Below, piece by piece: positions 44,579 through 50,547 of a stretch of DNA of 64,000 nt (positions within the stretch are counted from its first letter, which is position 1; the number at the start of each line of letters is the position of its first letter). Made by a program: the position numbers and the translations under genes. Origin of the DNA: Mucilaginibacter rubeus (GTDB lineage: Bacteria; Bacteroidota; Bacteroidia; Sphingobacteriales; Sphingobacteriaceae); the NCBI RefSeq assembly GCF_014643835.1, contig NZ_BMKD01000007.1, positions 62,001 through 126,000 on the forward strand, written 5' to 3'. Below the pieces are notes generated by a model that was given only the letters and a program-made list of their open reading frames with translations, made no database searches and was not told the origin of the DNA.

Positions 44579-46381
44579 ATGAAATTTATTAATAAAATAT
44601 GCGGTATTAGCTTAATAGCATTTTTAATAATGCTTGCCGCACCAAACATGAGTAAAGCCCAGGAAGGAGGCTATGTATCCGACCAGGAGTTTTACGACGA
44701 ACTTGACCCTTACGGTACCTGGGTTAACGACCCGCAATACGGTAACGTTTGGATCCCGGACGCCGGCGACAATTTCAGGCCATACGCTACCCGGGGCCAC
44801 TGGGTAGTAACCGACTATGGCAATACCTGGGTATCCGATTATGAATGGGGCTGGGCCCCGTTCCACTATGGGCGCTGGCGCTATGATGATTATTATGGCT
44901 GGGAATGGATCCCGGGCCATGAATGGGCACCGGCATGGGTAAGCTGGAGGCACGGCGGCGGTTATTACGGCTGGGCGCCTTTACAGCCAGGTATAAGTAT
45001 CAATATCTCTTTTGGCAATAGTTACAATGTGCCCGACAATTACTGGGTTTGCGCGCCACAGGCATACATCACCAGGCCAAATATCTATAATTATTATGTG
45101 CCGCAAACACGGGTAGTTAACATTATTCATCAAACAACAATTATTAACAACACCTATGTTAATAATAACCGTACCTATATAGCCGGCCCAAGAATTAACG
45201 AGATCAGGCAGGTTACCAACAACCGTAACGTACGTGTTTACAACATTAACAACGCTAACCGGCCAAACGGCGGCGGCAGGGTAGTTAATAATACAGTAAA
45301 TATTTACCGTCCGGAAGTAAGAAAAGCACCCGATGCACGACCTGCAAGGGTAGTAAACGCTGCCGCTTACAGGCAGCAAAACCCTAATGATGGCATCGCC
45401 AACAGACGCGGCGGTAACGCAACTATCAACCCCAATAATGCGGCCCGTCTGCGTCAAATTGCCCGTAACGAAAGACCTGATAACAAAATAGTACAGGTTA
45501 ACCATCCAGGCCCGGCAGCCCGGCCTAACCCGGAAAATGGAGCACGCCCAAATCAGCCAAATGCAAGGCCGGGAGACAATCAAGCTCAGCGTCAGCAACA
45601 GGCTCAGCAACGCCTGCAACAGCAACAAGCACAAAGGCAACAACAGCTTGATCAAAGACAAAATAATCAAACCCAACGCCAGCAGCAACAACAAGCCCAG
45701 CGTCAGCAACAATTACAGCAAAGGCAGCAAGATCAACGGGTAAAAAGCGAGCAGCAGAACCGTCCGCAGGCCCAGCAGGAACAGCAAGCCCAAAGGCAAC
45801 AACAAGTACAACAGAGACAGCAGCAACAGCAGGCCCAAAGAGAGCAGCAGTTACAACAGCGCCAGCAACAACAGCAGGCCAGAGGTGAACAACAGCGCCC
45901 ACAAAGCCAACCTGACCAGCAGGCACAAAGGCAGCAACAGGAACAACAACGTCAGCAAGCTCAAAGAGAGCAGCAGTTGCAGCAGCGCCAGCAACAACAG
46001 CAAGCTCAACGTCAACAACAGGAGCAACAGCGCCAGCAACAACAGCAGGCTCAACGTCAGCAGCAGGAGCAACAGCGCCAGCAACAAATGCAGGCCCAAC
46101 GTCAGCAGCAGGAACAACAGCGCCAGCAACAAATGCAGGCTCAACGTCAGCAGCAGGAACAACAGCGCCAGCAACAAATGCAGGCTCAACGTCAGCAACA
46201 GGAACAGCAACGCCAGCAACAAATGCAGGCTCAACGTCAACAACAGGAACAGCAACGCCAGCAACAAATGCAGGCTCAACGTCAGCAGCAGGAGCAGCAA
46301 CGCCAGCAACAACAACAGCGTCAGCAACAGCAGCAACAACAACAACGCCAGCAGCAGGAAAGGCGACCTGCAAACCGGTAG
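44579..46381 (+). CDS. DUF6600-like aromatic-repeat protein with Gln-rich tail
   Basis: A 600-residue exported protein with a signal peptide ending SKAQ (residue 28). Residues 35-150 contain Trp/Tyr/Gly repeats (for example YGTWVNDPQYGNVWIPD, YGNTWVSDYEWGWAPFHYGR), typical of DUF6600. Residues 150-300 are Asn/Ile/Arg-rich. From about 325 to 600 it is almost only Gln, Arg, Ala and Glu, with a 15-residue unit QAQRQQQEQQRQQQM repeated seven times near the end. The tail is probably a coiled or disordered surface-exposed segment. The repeats are exact enough at DNA level (45-bp period) to allow slippage. A terminator follows and then a thioredoxin gene. Confidence 0.85.
   Translation: MKFINKICGISLIAFLIMLAAPNMSKAQEGGYVSDQEFYDELDPYGTWVNDPQYGNVWIPDAGDNFRPYATRGHWVVTDYGNTWVSDYEWGWAPFHYGRWRYDDYYGWEWIPGHEWAPAWVSWRHGGGYYGWAPLQPGISINISFGNSYNVPDNYWVCAPQAYITRPNIYNYYVPQTRVVNIIHQTTIINNTYVNNNRTYIAGPRINEIRQVTNNRNVRVYNINNANRPNGGGRVVNNTVNIYRPEVRKAPDARPARVVNAAAYRQQNPNDGIANRRGGNATINPNNAARLRQIARNERPDNKIVQVNHPGPAARPNPENGARPNQPNARPGDNQAQRQQQAQQRLQQQQAQRQQQLDQRQNNQTQRQQQQQAQRQQQLQQRQQDQRVKSEQQNRPQAQQEQQAQRQQQVQQRQQQQQAQREQQLQQRQQQQQARGEQQRPQSQPDQQAQRQQQEQQRQQAQREQQLQQRQQQQQAQRQQQEQQRQQQQQAQRQQQEQQRQQQMQAQRQQQEQQRQQQMQAQRQQQEQQRQQQMQAQRQQQEQQRQQQMQAQRQQQEQQRQQQMQAQRQQQEQQRQQQQQRQQQQQQQQRQQQERRPANR
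46006..46320 (+). repeat. Seven-copy 45-bp coding tandem repeat
   Basis: A 45-bp unit coding for QAQRQQQEQQRQQQ plus Met or Gln is repeated seven times in the 3' part of the DUF6600-like gene, made almost wholly of CAG, CAA and CGT/CGC codons. Copies two to six end in ATG and are nearly identical. All three plus frames and some minus frames stay open here purely because of the composition. Confidence 0.85.
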
Positions 46382-47843: not shown

Positions 47844-48536
47844 TTAAGCTGTGTAACTGTAATTGGATGCACTCACTTTAGTTTTGAGGTAGGTGTTTGC
47901 GATAGGCAATACCTCGGCAATGGTAGCTGATTTATTCAAACCGTTGCTGTCTACCTGGTCATCGGCAGCAAATGACCCTGCCATCAGGATATTGCTGATC
48001 AATGCTGCGTGCCTGGCCTCAACCGATACAATTTTACCGGCAATGGTTAAATAACCGGCATCCTTAATCAGGTAACCTGCACCATCATAAGCTTTAACAC
48101 CGGTATCTTCAAATGCTTTAGCAGCACCAAGTACGGCTGCTTTTTTGGTAAAATCGATAGTGCTGAAATCGGTGGTAAGAGCAGGGATTGCATTACCTCC
48201 TAAAGCAGCTTTGAAAAATTCACGGTGGAGTATCTCATGATCACGAATACTTGTTAAAAGCGCTCTTTCATCGGAGGTCATCCCCGAATATGGGGTGGTA
48301 ATTACCTGGATATAAAACGCAGCTTCCAGTTGCTCAAGCGCGTAAGCGTAGTTAAGGATCGCAAGATCGCCTTTGGCACCGATATCAATGCCCCCGCCAA
48401 CAATTACCTTATGGTCTTTGTGACAAGCTGCTGTAGCTAAGAGTCCGGCTGATGCCACGCCTAACCCTGCATAGCGTAAAAATGACCTCCTGGCCATATT
48501 TGCTCCGCCTATGCTTTCCTGTTCAGATGTTTTCAT
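47844..48536 (-). CDS. Ferritin-like domain lipoprotein with Tat signal
   Basis: A 230-residue protein with a twin-arginine signal (ARRSFLRYAG, Arg16-Arg17) and a lipobox-like LLATAAC with Cys38. The ferritin-like core includes LEQLEAAFY, RDHEILHREFFKAAL, FEDTGVKAYDG and VEARHAALISN. Export in a folded state through Tat would suit a cofactor loaded in the cytoplasm. It is the first gene of a two-gene unit with the paralogue downstream. The small RNA array lies upstream on the same strand, ending about 177 bp before the start codon. Confidence 0.87.
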   Translation of the reverse strand: MKTSEQESIGGANMARRSFLRYAGLGVASAGLLATAACHKDHKVIVGGGIDIGAKGDLAILNYAYALEQLEAAFYIQVITTPYSGMTSDERALLTSIRDHEILHREFFKAALGGNAIPALTTDFSTIDFTKKAAVLGAAKAFEDTGVKAYDGAGYLIKDAGYLTIAGKIVSVEARHAALISNILMAGSFAADDQVDSNGLNKSATIAEVLPIANTYLKTKVSASNYSYTA

Positions 48537-48712: not shown

Positions 48713-48785
48713 AAAAAAGGCCGAAACACTCTCGCAGTTTTTCGGCCCTACATCTACCTATGAAAACAACCCTTTGAGAAGGGTG
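48713..48785 (-). ncRNA. Predicted small RNA, array copy A
   Basis: A transcript predicted to start near 48785 with the hairpin CCCTT-CTCA-AAGGG, then the linker TTGTTTTCATAGGTAGATG plus TAGG (one T shorter than in copies B-D). It ends with the terminator hairpin GGCCGAAAAACT-GCGAG-AGTGTTTCGGCC and six T residues. The stem has one mismatch. Loop GCGAG and linker are kept in all four copies. No protein-coding potential is shared. Orientation is chosen because only the minus strand ends in a T-run. Confidence 0.7.
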
Positions 48786-48796
48786 TTAATACTTAT

Positions 48797-48813
48797 CCAA
48801 ACCGGGTGCCAAA
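48797..48813 (-). promoter_or_regulatory. Sigma-54-like -24/-12 box, copy A
   Basis: TTTGGCACCCGGTTTGG: GG, 10 bp, then GG, where sigma-54 promoters have GG-N10-GC. It places the start near 48785. The inverted repeat AATCCC-N7-GGGATT (48882-48900) is centred 81 bp upstream. Confidence 0.45.
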
Positions 48814-48973
48814 TCATAAAACCGCTTTAAACTTCTATAAATAAGCTTTTTGGAGCTAACAGTTGTCACCGTGTGGAAAGCAATCCCAAAATCGGGGATT
48901 ATAAGCTACTGTCATTAAATATTCTTAATTAAAAAGCAATCAGATCAGAGAGAGATTGAAATTTCCGCTAAAT

Positions 48974-49048
48974 AAAAAAGGCCGGACAACTCTCGCAGTT
49001 ATTCCGGCCCTACATCTACCTATGAAAAACAACCCTTTGAGAAGGGTA
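48974..49048 (-). ncRNA. Predicted small RNA, array copy B
   Basis: It has the same plan as copy A: a 5' hairpin CCCTT-CTCA-AAGGG, a 25-nt linker, and a terminator stem GGCCGGA.. with GCGAG loop and ..TCCGGCC before six T residues. Here the stem pairs are GGA/TCC where copies A and D have GAA/TTC, a compensatory change. The copy is 263 bp from copy A, start to start. Confidence 0.72.
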
Positions 49049-49058
49049 TTAAACTATA

Positions 49059-49076
49059 TTCAAACCTGATGCCAAT
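49059..49076 (-). promoter_or_regulatory. Sigma-54-like -24/-12 box, copy B
   Basis: ATTGGCATCAGGTTTGAA: GG-N10-GA. An inverted repeat CCC-AAAACC-GGG (49151-49162) is centred 84 bp upstream of the GG. Confidence 0.45.
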
Positions 49077-49229
49077 GTTTAAAAATGGCTTTAAATGCCT
49101 AATTGGCAGCTTTTTAAAACACAACCGCACCTCAATGTGTAGAAATGACACCCAAAACCGGGAATTAATTTCCCAATGGTTAATTTCGGCAGGCTACATT
49201 TTAATTATCAGGCAACATAACGCCGTAAT

Positions 49230-49307
49230 AAAAAAAGGCCGGACAACTCTCGCAGTTGGTCCGGCCCTACATCTACCTATGAAAAACAACCCTTTTTAGT
49301 AAGGGTA
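49230..49307 (-). ncRNA. Predicted small RNA, array copy C
   Basis: Same plan. The 5' hairpin keeps its CCCTT/AAGGG stem while the loop grows from four to six bases (ACTAAA), and the terminator stem has GGA/TCC pairs with an inner change to ACCAACT/AGTTGT (one bulge). The T-run is seven. The start-to-start spacing from copy B is 259 bp. Confidence 0.72.
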
Positions 49308-49317
49308 TTAACTGTAA

Positions 49318-49335
49318 TTCAAACCAGGTGCCAAA
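49318..49335 (-). promoter_or_regulatory. Sigma-54-like -24/-12 box, copy C
   Basis: TTTGGCACCTGGTTTGAA: GG-N10-GA. Upstream, the palindrome TTTCC-T-GGAAA (49405-49415) is centred about 78 bp away, with a sequence different from the other copies. Confidence 0.42.
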
Positions 49336-49547
49336 TGCCAAAATGCCTTTCCAGTACTCAGAACGCATTTTCAAAGGCGTAGTGAATATAAAGTGAGTAA
49401 ATACTTTCCTGGAAATAGTGGTATAATTTTCCCAGAGGTTAAAACTCGATCGGCTAAACTACCTCACCCATCATCACCCAGACTGGATGACCTATCCGGT
49501 TACATAAACCTGCTTAAAGAGGAAACCGGCACCAAACATTGGATAAT

Positions 49548-49621
49548 AAAAAAGGTCGAAATACTCTCGCAGTATTTCGACCCTACATCTACCTATGAAA
49601 AACAACCCTTTGAGAAGGGTA
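49548..49621 (-). ncRNA. Predicted small RNA, array copy D
   Basis: The terminator stem is a perfect 12-bp GGTCGAAATACT with AGTATTTCGACC around the GCGAG loop. Pair 3 (plus-strand numbering) is T-A instead of C-G, and the inner stem is ATACT/AGTAT instead of AACT/AGTT, two further compensatory changes. Linker and 5' hairpin are as in copy B. Its start is 314 bp from copy C. Confidence 0.72.
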
Positions 49622-49631
49622 ATAACATTTA

Positions 49632-49649
49632 TTCAAACGAAATGCCAAT
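49632..49649 (-). promoter_or_regulatory. Sigma-54-like -24/-12 box, copy D
   Basis: ATTGGCATTTCGTTTGAA: GG-N10-GA. The inverted repeat CCC-AAACGA-GGG (49723-49734) is centred 82 bp upstream of the GG, at the same distance as in copies A and B. Confidence 0.45.
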
Positions 49650-49836: not shown

Positions 49837-50154
49837 ATGGACTATAATGTATATTTACTGGCAACCGATCCCCAAAACCCCTGTAGGGATGTGATCCATT
49901 CCAGGGATACACGCCTCAAGGTAAAAGTTTACTGTCTTGATGAAGAACAATTTAGTCCGGATGATAACGAGATCCAGCTTTATGGATACGCCGATCAGAA
50001 GCTTTACGCCTTTGAAACGGTTAGTGTAGCTGCCGAAGACGCGCTGGATTTGGTAGGCGCCATACAATGGTATGCCCACTATATCGAATTTCCGGAAATG
50101 GAAATCCTCCCGGAAGACCCCCGTCCGCGTGCCCAGTACAGGGATGTGAAGTAA
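49837..50154 (+). CDS. Small hypothetical protein (105 aa)
   Basis: An acidic, soluble 105-residue protein that I do not recognise (begins MDYNVYLLATDPQNPCRD). It contains a likely beta-alpha arrangement, LKVKVYCLDEEQF, IQLYGYADQKLYAFE and a helical VAAEDALDLVGAIQWYAHYI. It lies between the small RNA array and the tRNA-Val genes as a single-gene unit. The reading frame is bounded by an ordinary stop, and codon use resembles its neighbours, so it is probably real. Confidence 0.65.
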   Translation: MDYNVYLLATDPQNPCRDVIHSRDTRLKVKVYCLDEEQFSPDDNEIQLYGYADQKLYAFETVSVAAEDALDLVGAIQWYAHYIEFPEMEILPEDPRPRAQYRDVK

Positions 50155-50256: not shown

Positions 50257-50334
50257 GGGAGCTTAGCTCAGCTGGTTCAGAGCATCTGCCTTACAAGCAG
50301 AGGGTCACTGGTTCGAACCCAGTAGCTCCCACCA
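50257..50334 (+). tRNA. tRNA-Val (TAC anticodon), copy 1, CCA encoded
   Basis: The 75-nt body folds as a cloverleaf: acceptor GGGAGCT/AGCTCCC, D arm GCTCAGCTGGTTCAGAGC, anticodon stem CTGCC/AGCAG closed around the loop with anticodon TAC, and T arm with GGTTCGAACC. The discriminator is A and the CCA end is encoded. A short hairpin with a T-run follows. Confidence 0.97.
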
Positions 50335-50472: not shown

Positions 50473-50547
50473 GGGAGCTTAGCTCAGCTGGTTCAGAGCA
50501 TCTGCCTTACAAGCAGAGGGTCACTGGTTCGAACCCAGTAGTTCCCA
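50473..50547 (+). tRNA. tRNA-Val (TAC anticodon), copy 2, CCA not encoded
   Basis: The body is identical to copy 1 except one acceptor change, AGTTCCC instead of AGCTCCC, which makes a G-U pair with GGGAGCT. After the discriminator A the genomic sequence is CAA, so CCA must be added by nucleotidyltransferase. No clear promoter lies in the 110-bp spacer, and a hairpin terminator follows. Confidence 0.95.

Follow-up and report, generated by a model that had tools for sequence, protein, structure and literature searches.

In the 64,000-nucleotide stretch of Mucilaginibacter rubeus DNA analysed here (hereafter the window), the minus strand carries an array of four direct repeats, each approximately 75 nt long (48713-49621), as a preliminary description of the sequence had reported. 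The array lies between a downstream gene for a Ferritin_2 domain protein and a divergently transcribed gene for a 105-aa protein (M..N.YLLATDP) that had no Pfam match above cut-off (Table 1). Start-to-start spacing of the units is 262, 257 and 316 nt when measured on the 70-nt repeat family D1 and 263, 259 and 314 nt on family D2, and mean column identity across the four aligned units is 92%. Two very similar tRNA genes stand in tandem beside the array, and the window also holds a 600-aa ORF that ends in a long tail of Q/R-rich repeats.

Table 1 Coordinates of the array, its associated sequence elements and nearby genes in the window.
Feature	Positions	Strand	Remarks
sRNA copy A	49548..49621	-	Predicted +1 to T-run; aligned unit 49548-49625; alignment and fold
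sRNA copy B	49231..49307	-	Aligned unit 49231-49311; alignment and fold
sRNA copy C	48974..49048	-	Aligned unit 48974-49052; alignment and fold
sRNA copy D	48713..48785	-	Aligned unit 48713-48789; linker one T shorter; alignment and fold
Invariant linker and proposed seed, copy A, GTTTTTCATAGGTAGATGTA	49584..49603	-	Alignment
Proposed seed, copy B	49268..49287	-	Alignment
Proposed seed, copy C	49011..49030	-	Alignment
Proposed seed, copy D	48749..48767	-	Alignment
Sigma-54-like -24/-12 box, copy A, TTGGCATTTCGTTTGAA	49632..49648	-	Box kept at fixed distance
Sigma-54-like box, copy B, TTGGCACCTGGTTTGAA	49318..49334	-	Box kept at fixed distance
Sigma-54-like box, copy C, TTGGCATCAGGTTTGAA	49059..49075	-	Box kept at fixed distance
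Sigma-54-like box, copy D, TTGGCACCCGGTTTGGA	48796..48812	-	Box kept at fixed distance
Enhancer-like half-site upstream of copy A, TGTGGAAA	49740..49747	-	Read from sequence and motif statistics
Enhancer-like half-site upstream of copy C, TTTCTACA	49138..49145	-	Read from sequence and motif statistics
Enhancer-like half-site upstream of copy D, TTTCCACA	48872..48879	-	Read from sequence and motif statistics
Ferritin_2 domain protein	47844..48536	-	Downstream of array; conserved neighbour
Divergent 105-aa gene	49837..50154	+	Conserved neighbour
tRNA gene	50257-50331	+	
tRNA gene	50473-50547	+	
600-aa ORF, Q/R-rich repeat tail	44579-46381	+	

Folding bore out the same layout in all four copies, namely a 6-bp 5' hairpin (ACCCTT/AAGGGT) preceding an open linker, followed by a terminator hairpin with a GCGAG loop and a T-run. 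Folding z-scores against dinucleotide shuffles were -4.2, -3.4, -3.1 and -2.7, and 0, 0, 1 and 2 of 200 shuffles per unit folded as well as the unit itself. The compensatory stem changes reported between the copies are real (for example, GGGTCG/CGACC versus GGGCCG/CGGCC), and the linker, which had been described as unchanged, is a 19-20-nt sequence that is invariant among the four copies except that copy D misses one T. Divergence of the flanks held only in part, as a TTGGCAY-N5-TTTGRA box, absent from that earlier account, stands before each unit at a constant distance. The terminator loop (CTGCGAGAG, window 48713-49621) is nearly invariant in the array form, though terminator function needs no such loop, and it is missing from a second form of the RNA described below.

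A covariance model (R1) built from the four window copies identified the RNA in 60 of 61 Mucilaginibacter genomes and in 184 of 201 genomes of the family Sphingobacteriaceae, spanning 20 of the 25 genera sampled; the remaining 17 genomes and 5 genera gave no match in searches which, above 40 genomes, use stricter filters at which weak matches are lost. Among genomes from other families, 1 of 39 matched R1, while a broader model matched 12 of 395 genomes in a phylum-wide sample, 11 of them in the window's own family. A genome of another family (G087) carries a convincing member with a -24/-12 box. The phylum match in G293 (E 7e-4), a sequence without the linker, was judged to be due to chance. 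All 67 stretches matching the array-type pattern came from records of Mucilaginibacter or Bacteroidetes/Sphingobacteriaceae. When the whole window was scanned against Rfam 15, only the two tRNAs reached the gathering threshold, and lax searches of the window added sub-threshold matches only. The possibility of a known family such as Flavo-1 had been raised previously; no family, Flavo-1 included, reached gathering for the array, which is therefore not Flavo-1 by that test. A literature search, covering few subscription papers, found no description of the array RNA.

The stems covary across homologues, and the reading of the units as a trans-acting RNA and not a protein is supported by this covariation together with the invariant linker, the wide conservation and the lack of a kept reading frame. 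Across 76 homologues (67 distinct rows, window copies included), pairing holds in 95.0% of stem cells and two-sided change occurs at 11 of 20 pairs; cells with two-sided change numbered 107 versus 38.7 in shuffles, and none of 500 shuffles reached the observed value on all five covariation measures, figures that lean towards structure because the alignment was fitted to the model. No frame is kept across the window copies; for 97 units, the longest overlapping ORF has a median length of 28 codons, and those written out differ from one another.

Gene order around the RNA is also conserved. The 105-aa gene lies divergently within 1.5 kb of the RNA in 48 of the 67 named stretches, and a ferritin-like gene lies within the same distance in 37 of 67 (31 of the 52 with 1.5 kb of downstream sequence). 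The reported position beside a ferritin-like operon is thus that of a conserved neighbour, but nothing was found tying the ferritin genes to the function of the RNA.

Copies of the array type ('type 1', with the GCGAG loop) stand behind TTGGCAY-N5-TTTGRA, a sequence resembling sigma-54 promoters. Among the 93 named copies with at least 60 nt of upstream sequence, GG[CT][AG]-N6-TTG with the GG at -44 to -47 of TTTTCATAGG was present in 90, compared to a mean of 0.33 in 100 shuffles, and the box of the other three is displaced by a few bases. The GG, the TTG and the spacing of a sigma-54 promoter fit in these 90 copies, while in the window all four copies have A or G in place of the -12 C, the element reading GA or GG (sigma-54 consensus GC). 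If -12 is placed at the base that follows TTG, every window copy is predicted to start at the base immediately ahead of ACCC in its 5' hairpin. The sigma-54 DNA-binding domain (PF04552; rpoN) was identified in 58 of 61 family genomes, G001 included, a count that covers relatives of the window's assembly.

Putative enhancer sites accompany these boxes. A -24/-12 box precedes 77 of 96 distinct members (window and L001-L071), and exact TTTCYACA occurs upstream of 41 of these 77 (47 sites versus 0.9 in shuffled sequence) and upstream of none of the 19 members that have no box. The sites cluster at -70/-75 and -95 relative to the -24 GG. Among the named copies, 50 of 90 carry the exact motif versus 1.6 when shuffled; it was chosen after the data were seen, and unguided 7-mer counts agree with it, TTCTACA topping a 7-mer list made without the chosen motif. 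In the main text of a 2025 survey of sigma-54 regulons (PMC12316311), the terms 'sRNA', 'small RNA' and 'non-coding' are absent.

A second form of the RNA ('type 2') has the same seed as the array without the GCGAG loop, and is mostly single-copy in Mucilaginibacter, although one genome from outside the genus (G131) has 10 matches. Upstream of 42 type 2 members, TAnnTTTG was found in 29, a -24/-12 box in 2 and neither in 11, after 13 of 55 rows had been removed by hand as reverse complements of target sites (L090 among them). We take TAnnTTTG to be the Bacteroidota -7 element, which would give this second form a mostly housekeeping promoter. The sigma-54-like promoters, the second form and the complementary target sites all go beyond the preliminary description.

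The reverse complement of the linker reads CATCTACCT-ATG-AAAAAC, that is, a start codon with its leader. Searched as the 17-mer CATCTACCTATGAAAAA with up to 2 mismatches, the complement occurred at 138 places in 16 RNA-bearing Mucilaginibacter genomes; 46 were set aside by hand as the RNA genes themselves, and all 92 others were fetched and classified. The backwards pattern gave 38 places in the same genomes, so that the excess over this control is about 2.4-fold, and one permutation of the leader gave 19 places, none within 1 mismatch and counted without being located. Where no RNA gene was detected (16 genomes), the true pattern gave 35 places (2 within 1 mismatch, 0 exact) and the backwards pattern 25, though these genomes belong to other genera and therefore differ in composition and phylogeny. 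Complements with at most 1 mismatch numbered 22 in 87.1 Mb of RNA-bearing genomes versus 2 in 65.1 Mb without the RNA (p 2.6e-4), a comparison across related genomes that are not independent, as six of the close sites form one orthologous group in a conserved RNA, RNA-Y, described below. Sites complementary to the seed in other transcripts exceed chance, as expected of a base-pairing trans-acting small RNA (sRNA).

The close sites are also distinctive in their placement. Ten of the 22 lie at the start of an ORF of at least 40 codons, one is the ATG of a 34-codon ORF, six lie in RNA-Y and four directly before a terminator-like hairpin, so that 21 of 22 are at an ORF start, in RNA-Y or before a terminator; the last is inside a 145-codon open frame. 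Mechanical ORF starts make up 40 of all 92 places, against a background in which ATGAAAA frequently serves as a start in any case (the same rule counts 45 of its 219 occurrences in the window and L052-L071). Eight of the 40 proteins were scanned, and GH88, GH76, a histidine-specific methyltransferase, a lipocalin and DUF892 are among those whose site has 0 or 1 mismatch; no SusC-type family was found among the eight. Besides the small proteins and RNA-Y treated below and one 90-aa protein (L122, L140), no start-codon target recurred between genomes. Predicted duplex energies at 15 chosen sites ranged from -22.7 to -30.8 kcal/mol, whereas 3000 random 37-mers from the window averaged -7.5 kcal/mol, with 0.07% at or below -20.

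Two partners recur. One is an operon mRNA. The operon has a -24/-12-like box and usually contains an ORF of approximately 59 codons, and it encodes one or two paralogous proteins, 41-55 aa in length; of the 13 proteins aligned, 11 end in AA (examples are L077, L083, L087, L088 and their relatives). Neither the small proteins nor the first ORF matched Pfam above cut-off. Complementary sites lie between the genes and before the terminator of the operon, often just before it, and the operon at L088 has four stretches complementary to the seed. Among the small-protein loci, a ATCTACCTAT site (at most 1 mismatch, within approximately 0.5 kb) accompanies 10 of 13 in Mucilaginibacter and 4 of 17 in other genera; a close site is missing at the other 3 and 13, respectively. 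The small-protein family was identified in 50 of 121 family genomes (E<=0.01). The 16 other-genus genomes with a complement search include 11 from this sample, 9 of them with a small-protein match, and hand comparison placed a complementary site 35-62 nt downstream of the match in 5 of these 9. Even in G112, where no RNA gene was detected, a 2-mismatch site lies 20 nt after the small-protein match.

The other partner, RNA-Y (L074, L079-L082, L110, L125, L141, L155, L164), is a conserved Mucilaginibacter RNA with a 36-nt core that is identical in 13 of 13 Mucilaginibacter genomes and present in 0 of 108 other family genomes. Eight of its loci gave no Rfam match at gathering, and the ORF downstream is presumably acyl-CoA-dehydrogenase-like. 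A complementary site with 0-2 mismatches begins 63-86 nt before the exact core in 10 of 16 genomes, its flanks varying while the site stays, and the search revealed no site this good in the remaining 6 genomes.

The RNA family, its promoter boxes and enhancer-like sites, and the complementarity with its placement are read directly from the sequence, and on this basis the array probably encodes multicopy sRNAs that are driven by sigma-54, act by base pairing to block the start of translation, and have sponge-like partners. The four units would be paralogous trans-acting RNAs, each starting at its own sigma-54-type promoter and fired by an enhancer-binding protein that would act at sites of the TTTCYACA type, most of them lying 70-95 bp upstream of the -24 element. 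The 5' and terminator hairpins would protect the ends and leave the linker of approximately 20 nt single-stranded as a seed, with the potential to pair across the start codon of mRNAs reading CATCTACCT-AUG-AAAAA; targets would be mRNAs with CATCTACCTATG leaders. Because such pairing spans the start codon, we infer that translation initiation would be blocked. The same pairing may capture the mRNA of the operon for the ~50-aa proteins and RNA-Y, which would then act as sponges. Type 2, with the same seed and a mostly housekeeping promoter, would supply the sRNA at a basal level, to which the array would add once sigma-54 is activated. Taken together, the features point to a gene-silencing switch without an entry in the RNA catalogue searched (Rfam 15).

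A different arrangement of the same circuit, overlapping with this explanation, puts the sRNAs at the receiving end of regulation, with the small-protein mRNA and RNA-Y destroying or displacing them and so relieving repression of other targets. The several complementary sites per operon mRNA, up to the four of L088 and often just before the terminator, fit this arrangement, as does the identical RNA-Y core throughout the Mucilaginibacter genomes. However, genera without the RNA-Y core keep the sRNA, and RNA-Y therefore cannot be the general purpose of the sRNA. We regard this as a possible but rather unlikely account. Alternatively, the linker could mainly be a protein-binding site, for example for an RRM protein like RbpB of Bacteroides, with the RNAs titrating the protein and the complementarity to start regions being secondary. 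An invariant linker suits protein binding too, RRM_1 proteins occur in 41 of 41 Mucilaginibacter genomes searched, pairing leaves the conserved GCGAG terminator loop unexplained, and the Bacteroides RNA FopS, which shares UGUUUUUCAUAG with the array, is reported to bind RbpB (PMC11697453). Titration alone, however, gives no reason to expect 17-nt complements to lie at start codons, in RNA-Y and ahead of terminators, and as a main function it is improbable; titration and pairing are not exclusive, because the Bacteroides RNA is described as both binding RbpB and pairing with mRNA.

Two further readings deny the units a role as RNA, and both are very hard to sustain. The tandem repetition and a copy number that varies between species (1-4 array-type copies per stretch) could suggest a non-functional repeat, mobile or REP-like, that ends in a terminator by chance, but this is contradicted by the fixed promoter-to-hairpin distance, the covariation, the conserved synteny (48 of 67) and the presence in 20 of 25 genera. 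Equally far-fetched is a short peptide encoded by each unit, in the frame LFFIGRCR... from a TTG: one open frame does run through the linker, yet copy D lacks one linker T and the frame is therefore broken there, the downstream frames written out diverge between units, and the stems covary. The peptide-coding unit was rejected on these grounds.

Building on base-pairing sRNAs as the preferred reading, we tentatively propose a wider circuit, which is perhaps more speculative than secure. Across Sphingobacteriaceae, sigma-54 may drive both the sRNA array and the site-studded mRNA of the ~50-aa proteins, so that silencer and sponge would rise together, the genus-specific RNA-Y would serve as a standing sponge, and at least one phage would tap the circuit by means of a seed placed after its major capsid gene. 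A scan of viral contigs with a 16-mer of the seed returned 35 stretches, and a seed with a strong terminator was recognised by reading in one alone, L254 (IMGVR_UViG_3300003321_000307), a tailed-phage contig with terminase, portal, protease and major head protein (PHROGs). On its minus strand at ~1890-1960, an exact 20-nt seed copy is followed by a terminator right after the major head gene, and with it the phage may mimic the sRNA of its host.

Little of the post-transcriptional regulation in Bacteroidota has been charted, and the examples we met are FopS and GibS of gut Bacteroides. If the proposal is true, the array represents a separate environmental sRNA family whose seed is invariant and which comes with two classes of promoter, a defined sponge-like partner and targets that can be tested, and the sites named here allow direct tests in culturable Mucilaginibacter species.

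FopS (RF04319) and GibS (RF04182) of the Bacteroidaceae resemble the array in being short, multicopy RNAs of a Bacteroidota host with a single-stranded seed and a terminator, the seed in both cases being antisense to AUGAAAAAC start regions. The R1 seed of FopS and the array linker have UGUUUUUCAU.G (UGUUUUUCAUAG) and UAGAU in common and differ in the 3' part of the seed; the likeness could reflect descent, or it could be convergent because AUGAAAAAC is common. The best FopS match in the window scored 22.4 bits against a gathering threshold of 56 (E 0.84-1.2). Unlike FopS, the array has a 5' hairpin ahead of the seed and a tandem arrangement, and its -24/-12 boxes contrast with the housekeeping (sigma-ABfr) promoter of FopS, although type 2 does show TAnnTTTG (29 of 42). 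Membership of FopS was rejected on score, 5' hairpin and promoter class. At E<=0.01, FopS matched 4 of 247 phylum genomes and none of the 7 genomes of the window's family among those searched and listed. The FopS RNAs of Bacteroides are reported to repress SusC-like mRNAs at the start codon, with RbpB counteracting them (PMC11697453), which offers a precedent for the possible mechanism and not proof of membership. Sub-threshold FopS-like RNAs with TTTTTCAT starts were also observed (L287 in G372, L288 in G368, L300 and L302-L304), and their occurrence in and outside the family with strong FopS matches suggests a wider Bacteroidota sRNA class with this 5' word.

The Qrr RNAs of Vibrio are paralogous sRNAs under sigma-54 control, encoded by dispersed genes. 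The array likewise comprises several paralogous sRNAs with predicted sigma-54 promoters, although Qrr belongs to another phylum and no Rfam family matches the array at gathering. As for the partners, chbBC-ChiX of enterobacteria is an sRNA sponge, and an RNA of Caulobacter reportedly acts as a sponge for an sRNA (PMC12559287). Like these, the operon mRNA and RNA-Y carry sites complementary to an sRNA seed and could titrate it, but unlike them the small-protein operon has several such sites and a sigma-54-like box of its own.
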